The notes under the pieces: model-generated
The model's input: the letters and a program-made list of their open reading frames with translations, nothing else
Database searches by the model: none
Told to the model about the DNA's origin: nothing
Assembly: GCA_019247695.1 (NCBI GenBank)
Contig: JAFBAP010000162.1
Span: 1-44,185, forward strand
Length of the DNA stretch: 44,185 bases
Direction: 5' to 3'
DNA from: Verrucomicrobiota bacterium
GTDB lineage: Bacteria; Verrucomicrobiota; Verrucomicrobiia; Chthoniobacterales; JAFAMB01
In this document: in pieces, positions 36,457 to 44,185 of the stretch
How positions within the stretch are numbered: position 1 is the first letter of the stretch
How the letters are laid out: the number at the start of each line of letters is the position of its first letter
Made by a program: the position numbers and the translations under genes

Positions 36457-36648
36457 GAGTTCACACGGCGACCACGGCGGGCCACGGCGACCACGGCGGG
36501 AAGAAGGGGGGAAAGCGTTCGGAGTTCGGGGTTCGGCGTTCGGGGCGGAAGAGAATGCCACAAATGCCACAAGCGGAAAAATGCCACAAATGAAGAGGCG
36601 CCGGGCGGCATGGCTTCCCGCCGTGGTCGCCATGCCCGCCGCACAGCC
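36384..36648. repeat. Composite mosaic repeat overlapping the GT9 3' end
   Basis: GTGTCGAGTGCCGGGCGTCG-type units, then CACGGCGACCACGGCGGG units, GTTCGGAGTTCGGGG heptamers and AATGCCACAAATGCCAC units. The GT9 stop codon (TAA in CGACGTAAGAG) falls inside it. The last 50 bases carry an inverted CCGCCGTGGTCGCC unit. Confidence 0.8.
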
Positions 36649-36989
36649 TAGTGCTTCCAAAAGGTCATCAGGATGTTGATAAGAATGCCGATGAGAGTGG
36701 CGAAAAAGAACCACATCATTTGGAATTTAAAGGCATGGAGCTCTTTATGTATTTCCGTCCGAAACCCGGCGAGCTCTTGATGTATTTCCGCCCGAAACCC
36801 GGCGATCTCTTTCTGGAATTCTCCCCGAAGCTCCGCGAACATCCGATCGAGCCGGTCAATGCTCGGTCGTTCCTCGATTGCCGTGCTCATTACTTTGACG
36901 ATATGCTTGGCGTGCTCAGATTCAATACCTGCACCCTCGAGCTCCTCGACTGCGCGTTGAGTGTCCACTCTCTGCTTCCTTTCTATCAT
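36648..36989 (-). CDS. DUF1640-like coiled-coil protein with C-terminal membrane anchor
   Basis: About 113 aa from ATG 36989; a GTG at 36968 preceded by AAAGGAAG is an equally good start. N-terminal RAVEELEGAGIESEHAKHIVKVM resembles the head of DUF1640/CCDC90-type proteins. The middle is a coiled coil made of 11-residue repeats (EIAGFRAEIHQ, ELAGFRTEIHK), and the C-terminus is one membrane helix (MWFFFATLIGILINILMTF). Bacterial members are of unknown role. The repeats correspond to 33-base tandem units in the DNA, so repeat number may vary between strains. Confidence 0.75.
   Translation of the reverse strand: MIERKQRVDTQRAVEELEGAGIESEHAKHIVKVMSTAIEERPSIDRLDRMFAELRGEFQKEIAGFRAEIHQELAGFRTEIHKELHAFKFQMMWFFFATLIGILINILMTFWKH
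36741..36839. repeat. 33-bp tandem repeat inside the DUF1640-like gene
   Basis: Units 36741-36773 and 36774-36806 differ at a few positions only; a third, more diverged unit is at 36807-36839. In frame, each encodes 11 residues, one hendecad of the coiled coil. Confidence 0.8.
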
Positions 36990-37045
36990 CCTCGCTCGGA
37001 CGCGAGCCCCGCTTGGCGGGCGGCGTGAAGGCAGCGCGACTTTTC

Positions 37046-38572
37046 CTACCACAACTGCCGGTCAAGGGTGCGGTACTGGACCGCTTCGGCCAGGTGGTCA
37101 GGTCCGATCCGGTCGGCGCCGGCCAGGTCGGCGATGGTGCGCGCCACTTTGAGGATGCGGTCGTAGGCGCGCGCGCTCAGGTTGAGCGCGCTCACCGCCC
37201 GGCGCAGCAGTTCGGTGGCGTCGGGTTCCAGGGCGCAATGTTTTCGCAACAGTCGCGGGCCCATGCGGGCATTGGCTGAAACCTGGGGTTCGCCGGCAAA
37301 GCGTTGTTGCTGGCGCAACCGGGCGCGGGTAACCCGTTCGCGGATGTCCGAGGAGCCTTCGCCATCCTCGACGGTGGTCAGGTCTTTGAGTTCCATGGCC
37401 GGTACGTCGACGTGCAGGTCGATACGGTCCAGCAGCGGCCCGGAAAGCCGGCTCCGGTATTTAAGCACCTGGGCCGGGTTGCACCGGCACTCGCGCCGGG
37501 TATCGCCGTAATGGCCGCAAGGGCAGGGATTCATGGCCGCCACCAGCATGAACTCCGCCGGGAAAGTCATGGTGCCGGCTGCGCGCGAAATGGTGACCCG
37601 GCCATCCTCAAGGGGTTGGCGCAACACCTCGAGGGTCGAACGGCGAAATTCGGGCAGTTCATCCAAAAAGAGCACGCCGTGGTGCGCCAGGCTGACTTCT
37701 CCGGGCGAGGGGTGGGCGGTGCCGCCCAGCAATCCGGCGTCGGATATGGTGTGATGGGGGCTACGGAAAGGCCGTTCCCAGACGAAGGGGCGTTTGCGGT
37801 CCAACAATCCGCAGACGCTGTGAATCCGGGTTGTCTCGATGGCCTCGGCCAGGGTGAGCGGCGGGAGGATTGAGGGAATGCGCTTGGCGATCATCGATTT
37901 GCCCGAACCCGGAGGGCCGATCATCAAAAGGTTGTGTTCGCCGGCCGCCGCCACTTCGATGGCCCGTTTGACGTGGGGTTGGCCTTTCACTTCGCAAAAA
38001 TCGACTTCGCACCGGGACGCCGGGCGCTCACGCATGGCGACGGCGGGGGTGAGTTCCCGCTCGGCCCGCAGGTAGAGTACCACCTCGGTGAGCGTGGCGG
38101 CGCCAATGACGTCAATGCCGTCGACCATGGCTGCTTCGTCCGCGTTTTGAACCGGCAACACCAGAGTGCGCCGGCCGCGCCGGCGCGCCTCGAGGGCGAT
38201 GGCCAGTGCGCCTTTGACGGGGCGGAGTTGCCCTGAGAGGGCCAGTTCACCGGCAAACAAGAACGATCCCAGGTCAGGCAACCGGCTCTTCTCGTTGAGA
38301 ACCAGCAGGCCAAGGGCGATCGGCAGGTCGAAGCTGGGTCCTTCTTTGCGCAGGTCCGCCGGCGCCAGATTGATCGTGATGCGGCCTTCGGGCCCGCGCA
38401 AGCCGCTGTTGTGAATGGCGCTGAGCACACGATCCCTGCTTTCTTTAACCGCCGTGTCCGGCAGGCCGACCACGGCGATCCTGAAATCGTTGCCCCAACT
38501 GGCGTGGACCTCGGTTTCGACCTCGAAAGCATCGACGCCCACCACGGCCGCGGAATAAACTTTGGAAGGCAT
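37046..38572 (-). CDS. comM: YifB/ComM family Mg chelatase-like AAA+ ATPase
   Basis: About 508 aa, standard length. ATG 38572 gives [19 protein letters not shown], the usual start. N-terminal Lon-protease-like ChlI domain (to about 170). AAA+ domain with Walker [14 protein letters not shown], Walker [11 protein letters not shown] and the [11 protein letters not shown] zinc-finger-like insertion, then the Mg-chelatase C-terminal helix domain ([17 protein letters not shown]). In Gram-negative bacteria ComM is a hexameric helicase promoting branch migration of incoming DNA during natural transformation; whether this bacterium is competent is unknown. Confidence 0.95.
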
Positions 38573-38706: not shown

Positions 38707-39813
38707 GTGGAAGGACGAGCGGCAGAGCGAAGCTGGAAATTCCGCGTCGACGGGACCGGCCGGCGCCGGGCGTCGGCCACCCATTCGGTCTCCGGCACGG
38801 GCACCGACACAATGCAGATGCGGATGATAGGGGTCGAGGCGCTCTCAAAAGGGCTCCAGGCAGGGGCCGGATCAGGGGTGGAGGACCTCGGGGGCTTGCT
38901 CTCCGGCGCCGCCCGATTTACCGGCGTGGGCACCTTCCTGGGCCTGCTCTTCACGCCGAACACGACGGGCGAAAGGCCCCGGCCGGAAAAGGCGCTCAAT
39001 GATCCGACGTGGTTTCCGGCGGAGGTCACCGATGGCGAGTTGGACCAGTTTGCGGCCGATGCGCAAGCCTCGGGCCGCGAGGCGGCCCGACAAGCGCTGG
39101 TCAATTCCTGGTTAAGCCGCACGGGGGATGACCTGGTCAACTGGGGTATCCGGACCGGCAAGACCTTTCCGCAAGAGGTGCCGGCCGGCGAGATCGTGGC
39201 CTTCTACGGCCGCAAAAAGGCTGAAACAGAGGCCAAGAAAAAGGCCGAAAAGCAGGCGGGGGACGACAACGACGGCGGCAAAGTTGTCGGGACCGAACAT
39301 CCCCATTGCGGTGAGTGGGGTAAGTACGGCGAGCTCGTGAAGAAAAACGAGCGGGCCAAGCGAGCCAACCCCGACGTTTTCCCGCAGGAGGCCCACCACC
39401 TGCCCTCCTTCGCGGCCATGAGGCTTGAGGCTGAACGGGACTTTAACGGGGACAAAGATCTGAATCCCCGTCAAGAACGGGAACTCAAGAACGACCTACT
39501 CGCGCTAGACCTGCCAACTCCCGTTCACCGGAACACGGATACATGTGGCGGGAAGCAGCATTCAGTCGGACCCGATGGCAAGACCACGGTGCAACGCGAC
39601 TCGGAGGACCCGCGCAAAGCATGGGAAAAGGATAAAGAGGATGTCGAGCGATTAAAATTTCCTCGGGGCCAGGAAAAATGCCGTGCGACCACGCACGCCA
39701 GCCTCAAGGAGATGGACGGTGAATCAACAAAAGAAAAGATCGATGGGATCAAGAAGGACGTCGCCGAAAAGTACAAAGACGTTCAAGCCACGCCAAAAGG
39801 TAATGGAAGCTGA
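38707..39813 (+). CDS. Putative polymorphic-toxin-type nuclease, delivery domain missing
   Basis: 368 aa from GTG 38707; later ATGs at 38812, 38818 and 38824 are possible starts. The first 80 residues include GVGTFLGLLFTPNTTG, a hydrophobic patch often seen just before the C-terminal region of polymorphic toxins. A charged Lys/Glu/Ala stretch follows (about 170-190). The C-terminal part has EAHHLPSFAAM and, 50 residues later, LPTPVHRNTDTCGGKQ, a His-His then His-Arg-Thr pattern like HNH/LHH-type toxin nucleases. No signal peptide, PAAR, RHS or other delivery domain is seen. The next gene overlaps its end and looks like the immunity partner. Nuclease activity is inferred. Confidence 0.7.
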   Translation: MEGRAAERSWKFRVDGTGRRRASATHSVSGTGTDTMQMRMIGVEALSKGLQAGAGSGVEDLGGLLSGAARFTGVGTFLGLLFTPNTTGERPRPEKALNDPTWFPAEVTDGELDQFAADAQASGREAARQALVNSWLSRTGDDLVNWGIRTGKTFPQEVPAGEIVAFYGRKKAETEAKKKAEKQAGDDNDGGKVVGTEHPHCGEWGKYGELVKKNERAKRANPDVFPQEAHHLPSFAAMRLEAERDFNGDKDLNPRQERELKNDLLALDLPTPVHRNTDTCGGKQHSVGPDGKTTVQRDSEDPRKAWEKDKEDVERLKFPRGQEKCRATTHASLKEMDGESTKEKIDGIKKDVAEKYKDVQATPKGNGS

Positions 39814-40333
39814 CGAGCATATGGTGCACGCACAAGAAATCATGGACTTGATCGGTCGCTCCGGGCTGGACCCGCGCGTGGCCGGCCTCTTGGAGCGACT
39901 CGGCTTTAAACAGCCGCTGATCGGGTCGGACCGCAGCGACCCGCAGCTGGATGTCGATGAGGAACTCGGCAGGACCTTCGTCATTCTGGATGACACGGTT
40001 GGCACGGATTTTTTGTTTAAGTTTGCGGAGGCGCTGCCCGGCACGTCAGGCCAGCCATTCATGGAGGGCGAGCCCGTATTGATTTCGGTCTTTTTCTACT
40101 CGAAGGCCGAAAGCGCCCTGAAGGGCCTGCCGTTTGGGTTGTCGTTTAAGGACGATTGGGACCGCTGCAGGGCCAAGGTCGCTCAGCCGCCCGCCATCAT
40201 CGACGACCAGATAGTCTGCGACATCTGGACCGATCACCCGGTCTATCGACTCAGCCTCGACTACAGCCGCGATACGGCGAGGCTGATACAAATACCACGC
40301 CCAATGCCGGGCGCACGGCCGCTAGTGGGATGA
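39803..40333 (+). CDS. Putative immunity protein of the adjacent toxin
   Basis: About 176 aa from ATG 39803, overlapping the toxin stop by 11 bases; an ATG at 39821 is the alternative. Small, acidic, without signal peptide or membrane segment, as is typical for cytosolic immunity proteins. The stretch LPFGLSFKDDWDRCRAKVAQPP, followed by DIWTDHPVYRLSLDYSRDTARLIQI, resembles a pattern seen in immunity proteins of bacterial toxin loci (LPxGLxF...R...GxP...Y.L...Y). The assignment rests on that resemblance and the overlap with the toxin-like gene. Confidence 0.65.
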   Translation: MEADEHMVHAQEIMDLIGRSGLDPRVAGLLERLGFKQPLIGSDRSDPQLDVDEELGRTFVILDDTVGTDFLFKFAEALPGTSGQPFMEGEPVLISVFFYSKAESALKGLPFGLSFKDDWDRCRAKVAQPPAIIDDQIVCDIWTDHPVYRLSLDYSRDTARLIQIPRPMPGARPLVG

Positions 40334-40714: not shown

Positions 40715-41098
40715 ACACGGCGGGCACGGTGGAAGCGAATCACACCGCGCCACGGCGGAACACGGCGACCACGGCGGAAAGATAGAACCGTCCGCAGAAG
40801 GACGCAGAAGGACGCAGAAAGGAGGAAAGCATCCACAGATTACGCAGATTACACAGATTAAGGGCACACGGCGGGCACAACGTAAGAGTTCACACGGCGA
40901 CCACGGCGAACACGGCGGGAAGAAGGGGAAAGCCAGGCCGGCGCTTCTTCATTTGTGGCATTCTCTGCCGCTCCGAACCCCGAGCCCCGAACTCCGAACT
41001 CTTTCCCCCTCTTCCCGCCGTGTTCGCCGTGGCTCGCCGTGTTCGCCGTGTGAACTCTTACGTTGTGCCCGCCATACCCGCTGTGCCCGCCGTGTGAC
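40715..41098. repeat. Composite mosaic repeat with inverted arms upstream of the SNF2 gene
   Basis: The left part is a reverse-orientation copy: CACGGCGG units, then CGCAGAAGGACGCAGAA and CAGATTACGCAGATTAC units (40790-40860). Next comes GCGGGCACAACGTAAGAG with CACGGCGAACACGG units (about 40871-40932), a spacer containing TTTGTGGCATT and GAACTCC units, and the reverse complement of the arm (41001-41072). The whole ends with CCGCCGTGTGAC at 41098. Confidence 0.85.
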
Positions 41099-41186: not shown

Positions 41187-42974
41187 ATGAGCAGCTCCAG
41201 GCAACCGGACCTTAAGACTCAACCGCAAAACAGTTCTTCCGACGCCGGCCAACCTGCGTTCCCCTCGGTTCCCGAGGTGCGACTCGAGATCGCGGCGGCG
41301 CAACTGCCCGTGTACGATCGTTCTCAGGCGTATTCAGGCACGGAATCGTTTCGTAGGCTCGAGCGTGCGTCCCTGATGTGGGTTTCGAATCAGTCGGATG
41401 ATTTGCTCTGCCTGCCCTATTGCACGATCGATCACCTCGAGTATCAGCTTCGGACGGCTTTGCGAGTCACGGGCGCTCTGCGTGGGCGGGCGCTGTTATC
41501 CGACGAGGTTGGCCTTGGCAAGACGATTGAAGCCGGGCTCGTGCTGAAAGAGTACCTCACGCGCGGCATGGTGCGCCGGTTTCTCGTGCTCACGGTCCCG
41601 TCCTTGGTAGATCAGTGGGCCGAAGAGTTGGAGAGCAAGTTTTCCCTCTCGTCAGTCACGACGAATCAGCCGCAATTCCGGAACGATCCGGAAAGATTTT
41701 GGAAGGAGGAGAATGCGATCATCGGCTCCATTCATACCTTCAAACAGGATACGCACCTGGCTTTCGCGGTGCACCGGCCGTGGGACATGGTGATCGTGGA
41801 TGAGGCGCATCACTTGCGCAATCGCACATCGAAAGCCTGGGAAGCCGTGAATGCGCTTCAGCGCCAGTTTCTTCTCCTGCTCACCGCCACCCCGGTTCAG
41901 AATTCGATCGAGGAACTCTATAATCTGGTCACGCTGCTGAGGCCCGGGCATTTGCCTTCCCCGCAGGAATTCCGCCGCCGGTTCGTCAATCGGGACCGGC
42001 CGTATGAACCGCGTGAACCCGAACAACTCCGCCAGCTGCTCGGGCAGGTGATGATCCGCAATACCCGGGCGAATGCCGGTATCCGGCTGCCGGCGCGGCG
42101 GGCTGAAACCGTGGTTTACGAGCCGGGCTCCGGCGAGCGTGGTTTTTGGGATGAATGGGAGCGCGAACTGCGTGCCGCCCTTCAAGGTATGAACCTGGCA
42201 AAAGCCAGTTTGTGGGGCCGGCTGCTTCTGCAGGCGGCGGGCAGCAGCCCGGCGGCATGGTTGGATGCACTCGAAAAATTCCCTAAACCGGATTTGGTGA
42301 AACGGTGGAGAACGAAGGCGCTGCTGAAGCAGAGCTGGGAACGAAAGAGCGCCGCCCTACCCGCCTTAAGCCGGACCGAGGGCGGCGTGGTGATTTTCAC
42401 CCAGTTCCTCGCCACCCAGGATGCGTTGGCAGGAGCATTGGCGACGGCCGGAGTGAAGACGTGGCTGCTGAACGGCCAGACTCCGGCAGCCCAACGGCAG
42501 GGCCTCGTCGATTCGTTTCATGAGCAGGGCGGCGCGCTGCTGCTGACCAGGAGTGGAACCGAGGGCCGCAACCTCCAGTTCTGCCACCGGTTGGTGAACT
42601 TCGATCTTCCCTGGAACCCGATGGAGATCGAACAGCGAATCGGACGCCTTCACCGGATCGGCCAGGAACGGGTAGTTGAGATCTATAATCTGGTGCAGGC
42701 CGGCACCCTGCAGGCGCACCTGCTTGAGATTCTGGAAGGAAAGCTGAACTTGTTTGATTTGGTGGTCGGCGAGACGGGGCTCATCCTGGGTGAACGTTTC
42801 ACGAGCGAAGATTTCGAGGAAGAAATCTTCCGGCGCTGGCAAAACGCTGCAGACGACGACGTTGCCGGGGCGCTCAAGACGCTGGGGGATGAACTGAGCC
42901 GCGCCCGCTCCGGTTTCGAAGAGATCAAGCGCCTCGATGAAACCCTGTTTGCGCACGATTACGAAAGCACTTAA
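41187..42974 (+). CDS. SNF2/RapA-like DEAD-box-superfamily helicase
   Basis: About 595 aa from ATG 41187; TTG 41151 is possible. Superfamily 2 SNF2-type ATPase: Q-loop region, Walker A DEVGLGKTIEAG (about 106), DEAH box IVDEAHHLRN (about 205), motif III LLTATPVQNS (about 233), and the second RecA lobe with VVIFTQF, LLLTRSGTEGRNLQF and the signature QRIGRLHRIGQ (about 483-493). All catalytic motifs are intact. Compared with RapA it lacks the N-terminal RNA polymerase-binding Tudor-like domains and has a short helical tail. It forms a two-gene unit with the next gene (15-base gap). DNA- or nucleoprotein-translocating activity is expected; biological role unknown. Confidence 0.93.
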   Translation: MSSSRQPDLKTQPQNSSSDAGQPAFPSVPEVRLEIAAAQLPVYDRSQAYSGTESFRRLERASLMWVSNQSDDLLCLPYCTIDHLEYQLRTALRVTGALRGRALLSDEVGLGKTIEAGLVLKEYLTRGMVRRFLVLTVPSLVDQWAEELESKFSLSSVTTNQPQFRNDPERFWKEENAIIGSIHTFKQDTHLAFAVHRPWDMVIVDEAHHLRNRTSKAWEAVNALQRQFLLLLTATPVQNSIEELYNLVTLLRPGHLPSPQEFRRRFVNRDRPYEPREPEQLRQLLGQVMIRNTRANAGIRLPARRAETVVYEPGSGERGFWDEWERELRAALQGMNLAKASLWGRLLLQAAGSSPAAWLDALEKFPKPDLVKRWRTKALLKQSWERKSAALPALSRTEGGVVIFTQFLATQDALAGALATAGVKTWLLNGQTPAAQRQGLVDSFHEQGGALLLTRSGTEGRNLQFCHRLVNFDLPWNPMEIEQRIGRLHRIGQERVVEIYNLVQAGTLQAHLLEILEGKLNLFDLVVGETGLILGERFTSEDFEEEIFRRWQNAADDDVAGALKTLGDELSRARSGFEEIKRLDETLFAHDYEST

Positions 42975-42989
42975 TCGTCCGGCTCCGAG

Positions 42990-44033
42990 ATGAAGTTTTC
43001 AAAGATCCCCGCGCGCGCCGAGTACCTGATCGATTTCTTTGAAGAAGGCCTCTCGTCACTGGGTGCGATCTGCGAGCGTTCCTGGCACGATCGCCTGGAG
43101 GTCCTGGCGGAAGGTGAGACTGCACGGCTTTGGCGAAACGAAGGCGACTTCTTTTCGGGTGAACTGCATTTTTGCAACGGCGGTTTGCCGGAGACGGGGA
43201 ATCCGGAAACGGAGGTTTTTCCCGGCAGCCCACTAACTTTTAAGCTGGTCGAAGCGATTTGGACCCATAACGCGGTCCATTCCCGGGCCTGCCTCTCAAC
43301 GGGAGGGATCCTGAGGCCGCCGGCGCAGGACGTGGCGCAAAAGCTTTGGCAGGCGCAGTTCGGTCCCTGCGCAGCCTGGCGATTAACCACCCCGTTCCGG
43401 CCGGCCTGGAGTTTCTCGTTGGTCATTGCGCTGCGCTGCGAAATTCAGGCGATCGACCAGAGCTGGAGTTGTCATCGCCTGGCGTTTACTCTGCCCGGCG
43501 GCGAACGTGATGCCTCCCTGGAGTCAACGCTCGAGCAAATGAGCCCTACGGAAACCGCGCCTGAAGGGCCGGACTGGCCGGCGGAGGATGGGTTTACCGT
43601 ATCCGACTGGATCGGACGGGCGCTCGTCAACGAGCTGGCACCGGAGCTCTCCAAAATCAAGGAACGGCAGCAGAACTTTTTACGGCGGGAGCTGAGCCGC
43701 ATCGATACGTACTTCGACAACTATTCTCGTGAGCTGCATAGCCGCATGGCGCGCCAGCGCAAAGAGGACGCCATTAAACGTTATGCCGAGCGCCTCGAGG
43801 CTACACGCGTCGAACACAACCGGCGGCGAGCCGACCAGATCGAGCGTCACACGATCCATCTTCTGCCCCACGTTGACGCTGTGTTGACGGTGGCGGAACC
43901 TGCACTGGTCGCAACGGTCAGCTGCCGGGCCGGCCGCGCGGAACGAAGTACCCGGGCAACTTTTATCCCGCGAGCGCGCCGCTGGCATTTGGCAGAGAAT
44001 GCCACAAATGAAGAAGTGGCGGCTAACGGGTAA
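42990..44033 (+). CDS. Coiled-coil partner of the SNF2 helicase, unknown function
   Basis: 347 aa. N-terminal half (1-215) is a globular domain with several Trp (RSWHDRLEVLAEG, RPAWSFSLVIALRCE) that I cannot assign. Residues about 215-285 are a long charged coiled coil (LSKIKERQQNFLRRELSRIDTY, ERLEATRVEHNRRRADQIERH), followed by a short beta-prone segment HVDAVLTVAEPALVATVSCR. That tail resembles C-terminal parts found with RapA-like helicases, suggesting this protein supplies a module missing from the helicase. The last dozen or so residues (from ENATNEEVAANG) and the stop are encoded by mosaic repeat sequence, so the natural end probably lay earlier. Confidence 0.75.
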   Translation: MKFSKIPARAEYLIDFFEEGLSSLGAICERSWHDRLEVLAEGETARLWRNEGDFFSGELHFCNGGLPETGNPETEVFPGSPLTFKLVEAIWTHNAVHSRACLSTGGILRPPAQDVAQKLWQAQFGPCAAWRLTTPFRPAWSFSLVIALRCEIQAIDQSWSCHRLAFTLPGGERDASLESTLEQMSPTETAPEGPDWPAEDGFTVSDWIGRALVNELAPELSKIKERQQNFLRRELSRIDTYFDNYSRELHSRMARQRKEDAIKRYAERLEATRVEHNRRRADQIERHTIHLLPHVDAVLTVAEPALVATVSCRAGRAERSTRATFIPRARRWHLAENATNEEVAANG

Positions 44034-44185
44034 CGGGTAACGGGTTCGGAGTTCGGGGTTCGGAGTTCGGAGCGGCAGCATGGAGGTGGTTGCGAGTGTC
44101 AACCTTGGAGTTGCCGCCAGGTCCTCTTGATCTGTGTCAATCTGTGTAATCTGTGGATGGATCCTCTTTTCTGCGTTCTCTGCGT
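43994..44185. repeat. Composite mosaic repeat, cut by the window end
   Basis: AATGCCACAAATG unit, GGGTAACGGGTAACGGG units, four GTTCGGA/GTTCGGG heptamers, a linker of about 60 bases starting CGGCAGCATGG, the ATCTGTGT tandem ending TGTGGATGG, then TTCTGCGTTCTCTGCGT at the edge. Same order as 11356-11604. It begins inside the last codons of the preceding gene. Confidence 0.85.

Follow-up and report, generated by a model that had tools for sequence, protein, structure and literature searches.

SNF2-type helicases of the RapA/DrmD kind carry a motor and a C-terminal tail fused in one protein, as in RapA, in DrmD of DISARM and in BrxHII of type 3 BREX. The C-termini of RapA and BrxHII are outlined in PMC12839542 as a nuclease-like domain followed by a sheet with two inserted coiled-coil helices, and for RapA itself the account in PMC8501970 has the N-terminal domain restraining the ATPase and the Spacer contacting RNA polymerase. 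Operons of DUF499, methylase and SNF2 genes are presented as restriction-type systems with a one-piece, often nuclease-fused helicase (PMC12839542, PMC7641849). Here we describe a locus of the Verrucomicrobiota contig JAFBAP010000162.1 in which an SNF2-type translocase gene is followed closely by a gene for a 347-residue partner protein. The window, that is, the whole stretch of DNA analyzed, is the entire contig of 44,185 bases, from a genome of 5.19 Mb in 191 contigs that is 96.7% complete (nearest relative, the Verrucomicrobiota metagenome-assembled genome JAFAUY010000004.1). The pair probably represents a naturally split RapA/DrmD-type SNF2 helicase, one gene for the motor core and one for the tail module, whose products most likely form a single motor. 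The parts of the pair are the following:

41187..42974, + strand: SNF2-type DNA translocase, 595 amino acids, a RapA/DrmD-like motor core that lacks both the N-terminal Tudor domain and the C-terminal module (Pfam, NCBIfam and PADLOC matches, RapA alignment, tree, and ratio of nonsynonymous to synonymous substitution rates, dN/dS)
41502..41525, + strand: Walker A motif DEVGLGKT, helicase residues 106-113, read in the sequence and unchanged in the sibling species
41799..41813, + strand: Walker B / DEAHH motif, helicase residues 205-209, read in the sequence and unchanged in the sibling species
42633..42665, + strand: motif VI QRIGRLHRIGQ, helicase residues 483-493, read in the sequence and unchanged in the sibling species
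42975..42989, + strand: spacer of 15 bases from the gene coordinates; in relatives it varies between an overlap of 8 bases and a gap of about 60
42990..44033, + strand: partner protein, 347 amino acids, most likely the separated C-terminal module (Spacer plus C-terminal domain, CTD) of a RapA/DrmD-type helicase (profile-profile match in register)
42990..43604, + strand: N-terminal part of the partner, residues 1-205, putative counterpart of the Spacer / degenerate nuclease-like domain (N-part profile match)
43599..43940, + strand: coiled coil of the partner, about residues 204-317, putative counterpart of the helical insert in the RapA/BrxHII C-terminal domain (modelled helix, of low confidence outside about 240-300, and C-part profile match at 64.8% and 41.0%; reversed, 2.1% and 1.3%)

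The initial annotation, made from the sequence alone, had reported an intact SNF2 ATPase lying 15 bases ahead of a 347-residue protein, and open reading frames (ORFs), motifs and Pfam all agree. The frame of the first gene is open from 41151 (TTG; 607-residue reading), and the ATG at 41187 yields 595 residues, of which the first ~30 appear low-complexity by sequence, up to the stop at 42974. Both halves of a RapA-type SNF2 motor core are present (SNF2-rel_dom, E 6e-34; Helicase_C, E 1e-15) with intact ATPase motifs, a TATP motif being readable as well. Among solved structures RapA ranks second by sequence (E 3e-33), after an archaeal SNF2/Rad54 helicase. The top-scoring NCBIfam models for the motor are those of DrmD (207.9 and 212.6 bits, under cut-offs of 610 or 950), the RapA model NF003426 gives 196.4 bits (under its cut-off of 576), and the PADLOC BrxHI/BrxHII model gives 215 bits. 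Because residue 96 of the 607-residue reading (84 from the ATG) already meets RapA residue 155, there is no room for the RapA N-terminal domain, and the tandem Tudor domain of 107 residues found there in RapA is missing. The partner consists of a ~200-residue alpha/beta-looking region, a ~110-residue coiled coil and a short end, stopping about 25 residues before the ends of its cyanobacterial relatives. It had no above-chance match in Pfam, NCBIfam, PADLOC or PHROGs and no sequence match in the PDB; its order of parts resembles that of the RapA/BrxHII C-terminus as described in PMC12839542.

Comparison of profiles carries the identification of the partner. Tails of 310-523 residues, starting 60 residues past motif VI, were taken from E. 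coli RapA, DrmD, HMA helicases and methylase-linked SNF2 proteins and set against a profile of 18 partners, eight of them bacterial and the others haloarchaeal. Against 12 tails (DrmD, DrmD-like, methylase-linked and Haloferax) the match reached a probability of 96.4% (E 1.3e-9), with partner columns 18-326 on tail columns 67-361 of 368. With two RapA tails added it reached 97.0% (E 1e-10; columns 15-315 on 75-354 of 373; 36.5% when reversed), and with 12 HMA tails added as well, 26 in all, 96.4%. Leaving out one family at a time kept the probability at 95.9% or above in each run, with match starts confined to columns 8-15 of the partner and 60-75 of the tail (7-37% for reversed alignments), and 30 column shuffles per set gave best scores of 15.4 and 11.9 against real scores of 77 and 80. 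Since the profiles align the partner in register with what stands behind the motor in one-piece RapA, DrmD and HMA helicases, the protein most likely represents a RapA-type helicase tail that has become a gene of its own. The initial annotation had called the N-terminal domain of the partner unknown, and had named as fatal to its own proposal the case that the partner was simply a split C-terminal part of a RapA-type protein; the alignment with the C-terminal module of RapA/DrmD-type helicases lends no support to a novel domain there and largely bears out the case of a split C-terminal part. Its remark that the polymerase-binding domains of RapA were lacking stands for the N-terminal domain and fails for the Spacer/CTD-like module, which is present as the second gene.

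Measured against the known systems, the pair shares with RapA the sequence of the motor core and the succession of core, Spacer and CTD, the last two being represented by the partner; it differs by its two genes, by the missing RapA N-terminal domain and by its patchy, accessory occurrence. DrmD tails are among those matched by the partner profile, although DrmD itself is one gene where there are two here. BrxHII and ArmA of ARMADA are RapA-like in architecture according to the literature, which describes both as one-piece and BrxHII as having an N-terminal Tudor domain, and the partners of BREX were not seen at the pair. Pfam recognized no DrmA, DrmB or methylase in the 14 scanned ORFs of the window, on a contig that stops 152 bases past the partner gene; as the initial annotation had already remarked of the methylase, no methylase, DUF499 or nuclease partner is found here. 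Nothing 3' of the partner is visible because the window is the complete contig. The literature passages searched, among them those of PMC12839542, PMC12458937, PMC7641849, PMC3710099 and PMC8501970, yielded no account of an SNF2 helicase split in this way, though supplements may list one; in PMC12839542 the word "split" is absent from the main text.

A tree of the motor domain was built from 46 sequences, 20 split and 26 one-piece (from this phylum, from plasmids, and RapA); it is midpoint-rooted and came with program warnings of long branches and of odd composition in one row (L038). All 20 split helicases fall on one side of a single branch (support 97/92; 95% of 200 bootstrap trees), in a clade that divides into a bacterial and a haloarchaeal half and adjoins methylase-linked one-piece helicases (98/93), and the nearest one-piece relatives sit in loci with a methylase and DUF262 or AIPR/Abi genes. 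As far as the sequences in this sample tell, the split is thus one old event and no assembly error. Most likely it is an ancient two-subunit form maintained by purifying selection, and not a break of recent date. An apparent second natural split, drmD of another genome (G273, contig C28; L080/L092), was rejected: its break lies inside motif VI and its tail is frameshifted, so that a DISARM gene is read as two ORFs.

The genus of the source genome allows selection to be measured. Its sole other genome (G001; L012/L054), the sibling species, has the same gene order of heptosyltransferase, comM, SNF2 and partner as the window, with the SNF2 protein 89% identical and the partner 83% identical over 139 codons up to the contig end; both contigs of the genus terminate within or just after the partner. 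Between window and sibling, dN/dS was 0.098 for the helicase (594 codons), 0.122 for the available part of the partner (139 codons) and 0.055 for comM. Both genes are therefore under purifying selection in this genus, and their retention in the sibling at these ratios takes the ORFs beyond chance. At the comM flank of the family genomes with enough sequence, both the pair and the heptosyltransferase were absent (4/4). The position next to comM is common to the genus only, and the conserved housekeeping synteny that the initial annotation had considered damaging to its proposal was not found.

Beyond the genus, relatives of the helicase were found by tblastn on five cyanobacterial plasmids, one plasmid of the alphaproteobacterium Rhodovastum and haloarchaeal plasmids, at 34-43% identity and mostly 76-94% query coverage. 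Among the 24 plasmid records with a helicase match of E 8e-44 or better, 23 have the partner directly downstream on the same strand (22 by tblastn, that of Halocatena by profile), and the remaining one, from Nodularia, holds a 262-residue helicase fragment without partner. No plasmid record had a partner but no helicase; as a query, the window partner found one record, two bacterial relatives the same six, and one haloarchaeal partner 16. Loci of distinct bacterial lineages have nothing in common in their flanks except the pair and plasmid backbone genes, and some of these pairs lie near toxin-antitoxin and integrase genes. Four scans of viral contigs returned no partner relatives, and a search of them with the helicase gave 16 distant matches. 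One record filed as an Acinetobacter phage (CAKLQF020000007.1) looks like bacterial chromosome, given that rapA, rluA, hemL and other bacterial genes are present in the stretch.

Within the phylum the pair is patchy (the genome sets overlap, and the counts are not additive). A single-query search with the partner matched two of 57 relatives, the source genome and its sibling. The helicase at E 1e-40 was found in four of 197 genomes of the order, its short form just in G000 and G001; the other two matches (30-33% identity) lie within open frames of 942 and 1020 residues. At E 1e-45 it was found in four of 387 phylum genomes, namely the source genome, G549 and two with one-piece SNF2 proteins. 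In G549 the helicase is 42% identical and is followed, with a 4-base overlap, by a 349-residue partner; this helicase (L015:1289-3571) has an additional N-terminal region of about 150 residues. The partner profile matched three of the 387 genomes, the source genome, G549 and, weakly, G302, and the last was left uncounted, its match covering 61 columns (E 0.003) at about those of the coiled coil. Four one-piece SNF2 proteins of 908-965 residues (L013, L014, L016, L017) were left out, having long N-terminal parts and, by match positions, little past the motor. Both genes thus occur together in three Verrucomicrobiota genomes, which with the 23 of 24 plasmid records supports a genuine unit of two genes, conserved and accessory in character, as the initial annotation had proposed.

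The haloarchaeal plasmids supply genetic context. In 12 of the 19 plasmid records found with a DUF499 ATPase from one pair locus as query, the match spans 91-100% of that query with at least 42% identity. Each of these 12 has the split pair at a distance of 0.2-13.7 kb (some distances being counted from match edges); the remaining seven, whose matches have 27-29% identity and span roughly half the length, are all absent from the list of records with the pair. A DUF1156 methylase of at least 50% identity occurs in those same 12 records, and the next record, from Halorussus limi (49%), has the methylase alone, with neither DUF499 nor the pair nearby. In 12 of 12 cases, then, DUF499, a DUF1156 methylase and an SNF2 helicase stand in one locus. 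These are exactly the genes of HMA / BREX-related systems, from which the split pair differs in having its helicase in two parts without fused nuclease and, in bacteria, a solo form without DUF499 or DUF1156 nearby. The initial annotation had proposed to look for enrichment near known defense genes; the haloarchaeal pairs are linked to DUF499/DUF1156 restriction genes, and no conserved defense set was found near the bacterial pairs.

Among the five haloarchaeal pairs outside these loci, three form a second group by the helicase tree (L040, L046, L057), and all three have restriction-endonuclease-like genes downstream. L040 and L057 also have in common a PbeA-like helicase and a 279-residue protein, making a second locus type. 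The partners of L057 (9575-12862, 1095 residues) and L046 (9660-11690, 676 residues) carry very long CxxC / CxxH arrays behind the coiled coil, with no Pfam match.

On this basis, the first gene product would be a double-stranded-DNA translocase core, moved along DNA by ATP hydrolysis, and in the second a sheet interrupted by a long coiled-coil insert would come after a degenerate nuclease-like (Spacer) domain. Both products most likely bind one another and act as a single motor, to which the partner may contribute substrate sensing or docking together with control of the ATPase; that control most likely falls to the partner because the split form has no room for a RapA-like N-terminal domain. 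In haloarchaea the split motor, by its linkage, would fill the place of the helicase in DUF499-DUF1156 restriction-type loci. The pair is a solo unit both on the cyanobacterial plasmids and in the source bacterium, where it may act alone or with unlinked genes, and its probable task is to strip or remodel the protein-DNA complexes that incoming or mobile DNA carries. The split pair is probably related to defense, with a putative antiphage role. A bolder and rather improbable reading sees in the bacterial pair a minimal module for immunity or against plasmids that consists of the motor only, its former tail working in trans as a sensor that can be exchanged; the same split motor would have been incorporated into the haloarchaeal DUF499-DUF1156 loci and, in another group of haloarchaea, equipped with long cysteine arrays on its sensor subunit.

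The natural break at the boundary of motor and tail separates two functions that are fused in RapA, DrmD and BrxHII, and the subunits could be mixed or swapped to ask whether the tail serves sensing, docking or ATPase control. In the haloarchaeal DUF499-DUF1156 loci examined, the helicase can now be pointed to as split. Because annotation leaves the second gene a "hypothetical protein", searches may miss such systems or count them as incomplete.

Other roles can be set beside this one. A complete two-gene anti-phage system, in which motor and sensor/effector would displace or stall phage replication or transcription complexes with neither methylase nor nuclease, is a rather doubtful reading. 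It would account for bacterial loci that share just the pair and plasmid backbone genes, for the plasmid locations near toxin-antitoxin and integrase genes and for the closest one-piece relatives in methylase and DUF262 or AIPR/Abi loci, but the pair has no recognizable effector, its partner has no PADLOC model, and the bacterial pairs were not found near a conserved set of defense genes. It is unlikely that the pair is what remains after a restriction locus of the DUF499-DUF1156 (HMA / BREX-related) kind was deprived of its methylase and ATPase, leaving the helicase to persist solo. The 12 haloarchaeal loci speak for such an origin, as does the source genome, in which neither DUF499 nor DUF1156 had a match (0 each). 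Every bacterial locus seen is solo, however, including the intact pairs on five cyanobacterial plasmids, which together with the purifying selection in the window's genus argues against ongoing decay.

The split-helicase reading itself has evidence to answer. Its haloarchaeal context is incomplete, since close DUF499 and DUF1156 genes are missing from five of the 17 haloarchaeal plasmids that carry the pair, and the blank searches of the source genome leave the pair there as a solo unit. The eight bacterial partners alone reached the tails at anything from 5.7 to 90.6% depending on the set, so that the window partner is tied to the tails via its haloarchaeal relatives, which it matches at 92.0% over the whole length (bacterial against haloarchaeal partners; 96.8% with the global option) and at just 1.4% when the N-parts are taken alone. 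Comparisons of single families were mostly weak, though equally so between one-piece families, except HMA with HMA. In the PDB, the partner profile matched coiled-coil-like chains at E 0.07 or worse and no chain of RapA, and the structure models are poor (predicted local distance difference test of 45 for the partner and 31.5 for the helicase), a long helix at partner residues ~204-317 being the sole part with some confidence.

The lack of a RapA match in the PDB would suit an unrelated coiled-coil protein that travels with the helicase and owes its profile match to coiled-coil bias, as would the highest reversed control, which reached 43% in one set, carried by the coil. We consider this quite improbable. 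Without the coil, the N-parts of the partners still matched those of the 26 tails at 89.8%, against 0.1% when reversed (37.3% and 0.1% for the 12-tail set lacking RapA and HMA), and the match is collinear, its start lying directly behind the motor whichever family was left out. A DrmD-model match to one haloarchaeal partner (E 0.019), due to the coiled coil alone, was discarded as evidence.

Finally, the pair is very unlikely to serve, in the manner of RapA, as a housekeeping or stress factor for RNA polymerase recycling or nucleoid remodeling: the closeness to RapA among solved structures and a partner that matches the module whose Spacer, in RapA, contacts RNA polymerase (PMC8501970) are outweighed by the low RapA model score (196 bits against 576), the lack of room for the N-terminal RapA domain, the patchy occurrence (short helicase in two of 197 genomes of the order; partner in two of 387 of the phylum besides the weak 61-column match) and the plasmid location elsewhere.

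The repeats that the initial annotation had noted on both sides of the pair are real, and belong to a GC-rich repeat dispersed through the genome, pieces of which match 40 further sites. The two copies are:

40937..41008, strand not assigned: left copy of the dispersed genomic repeat, outside the system (genome-wide repeat matches)
43991..44078, strand not assigned: right, inverted copy of the repeat, providing the last ~14 codons of the partner (genome-wide repeat matches, overlap with the ORF)

Upstream of the pair lie two overlapping unannotated ORFs (38707-39813 and 39683-40333), the first of which has an EAHH stretch close to its end. Their look, which we take to be toxin/immunity-like, had led the initial annotation to a toxin-like pair, and no database match supports it; they are excluded from the unit because they are missing from the same site in the sibling species. 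Farther upstream, a 33-base tandem repeat lies at 36738-36829, inside a minus-strand ORF (36648-37052).

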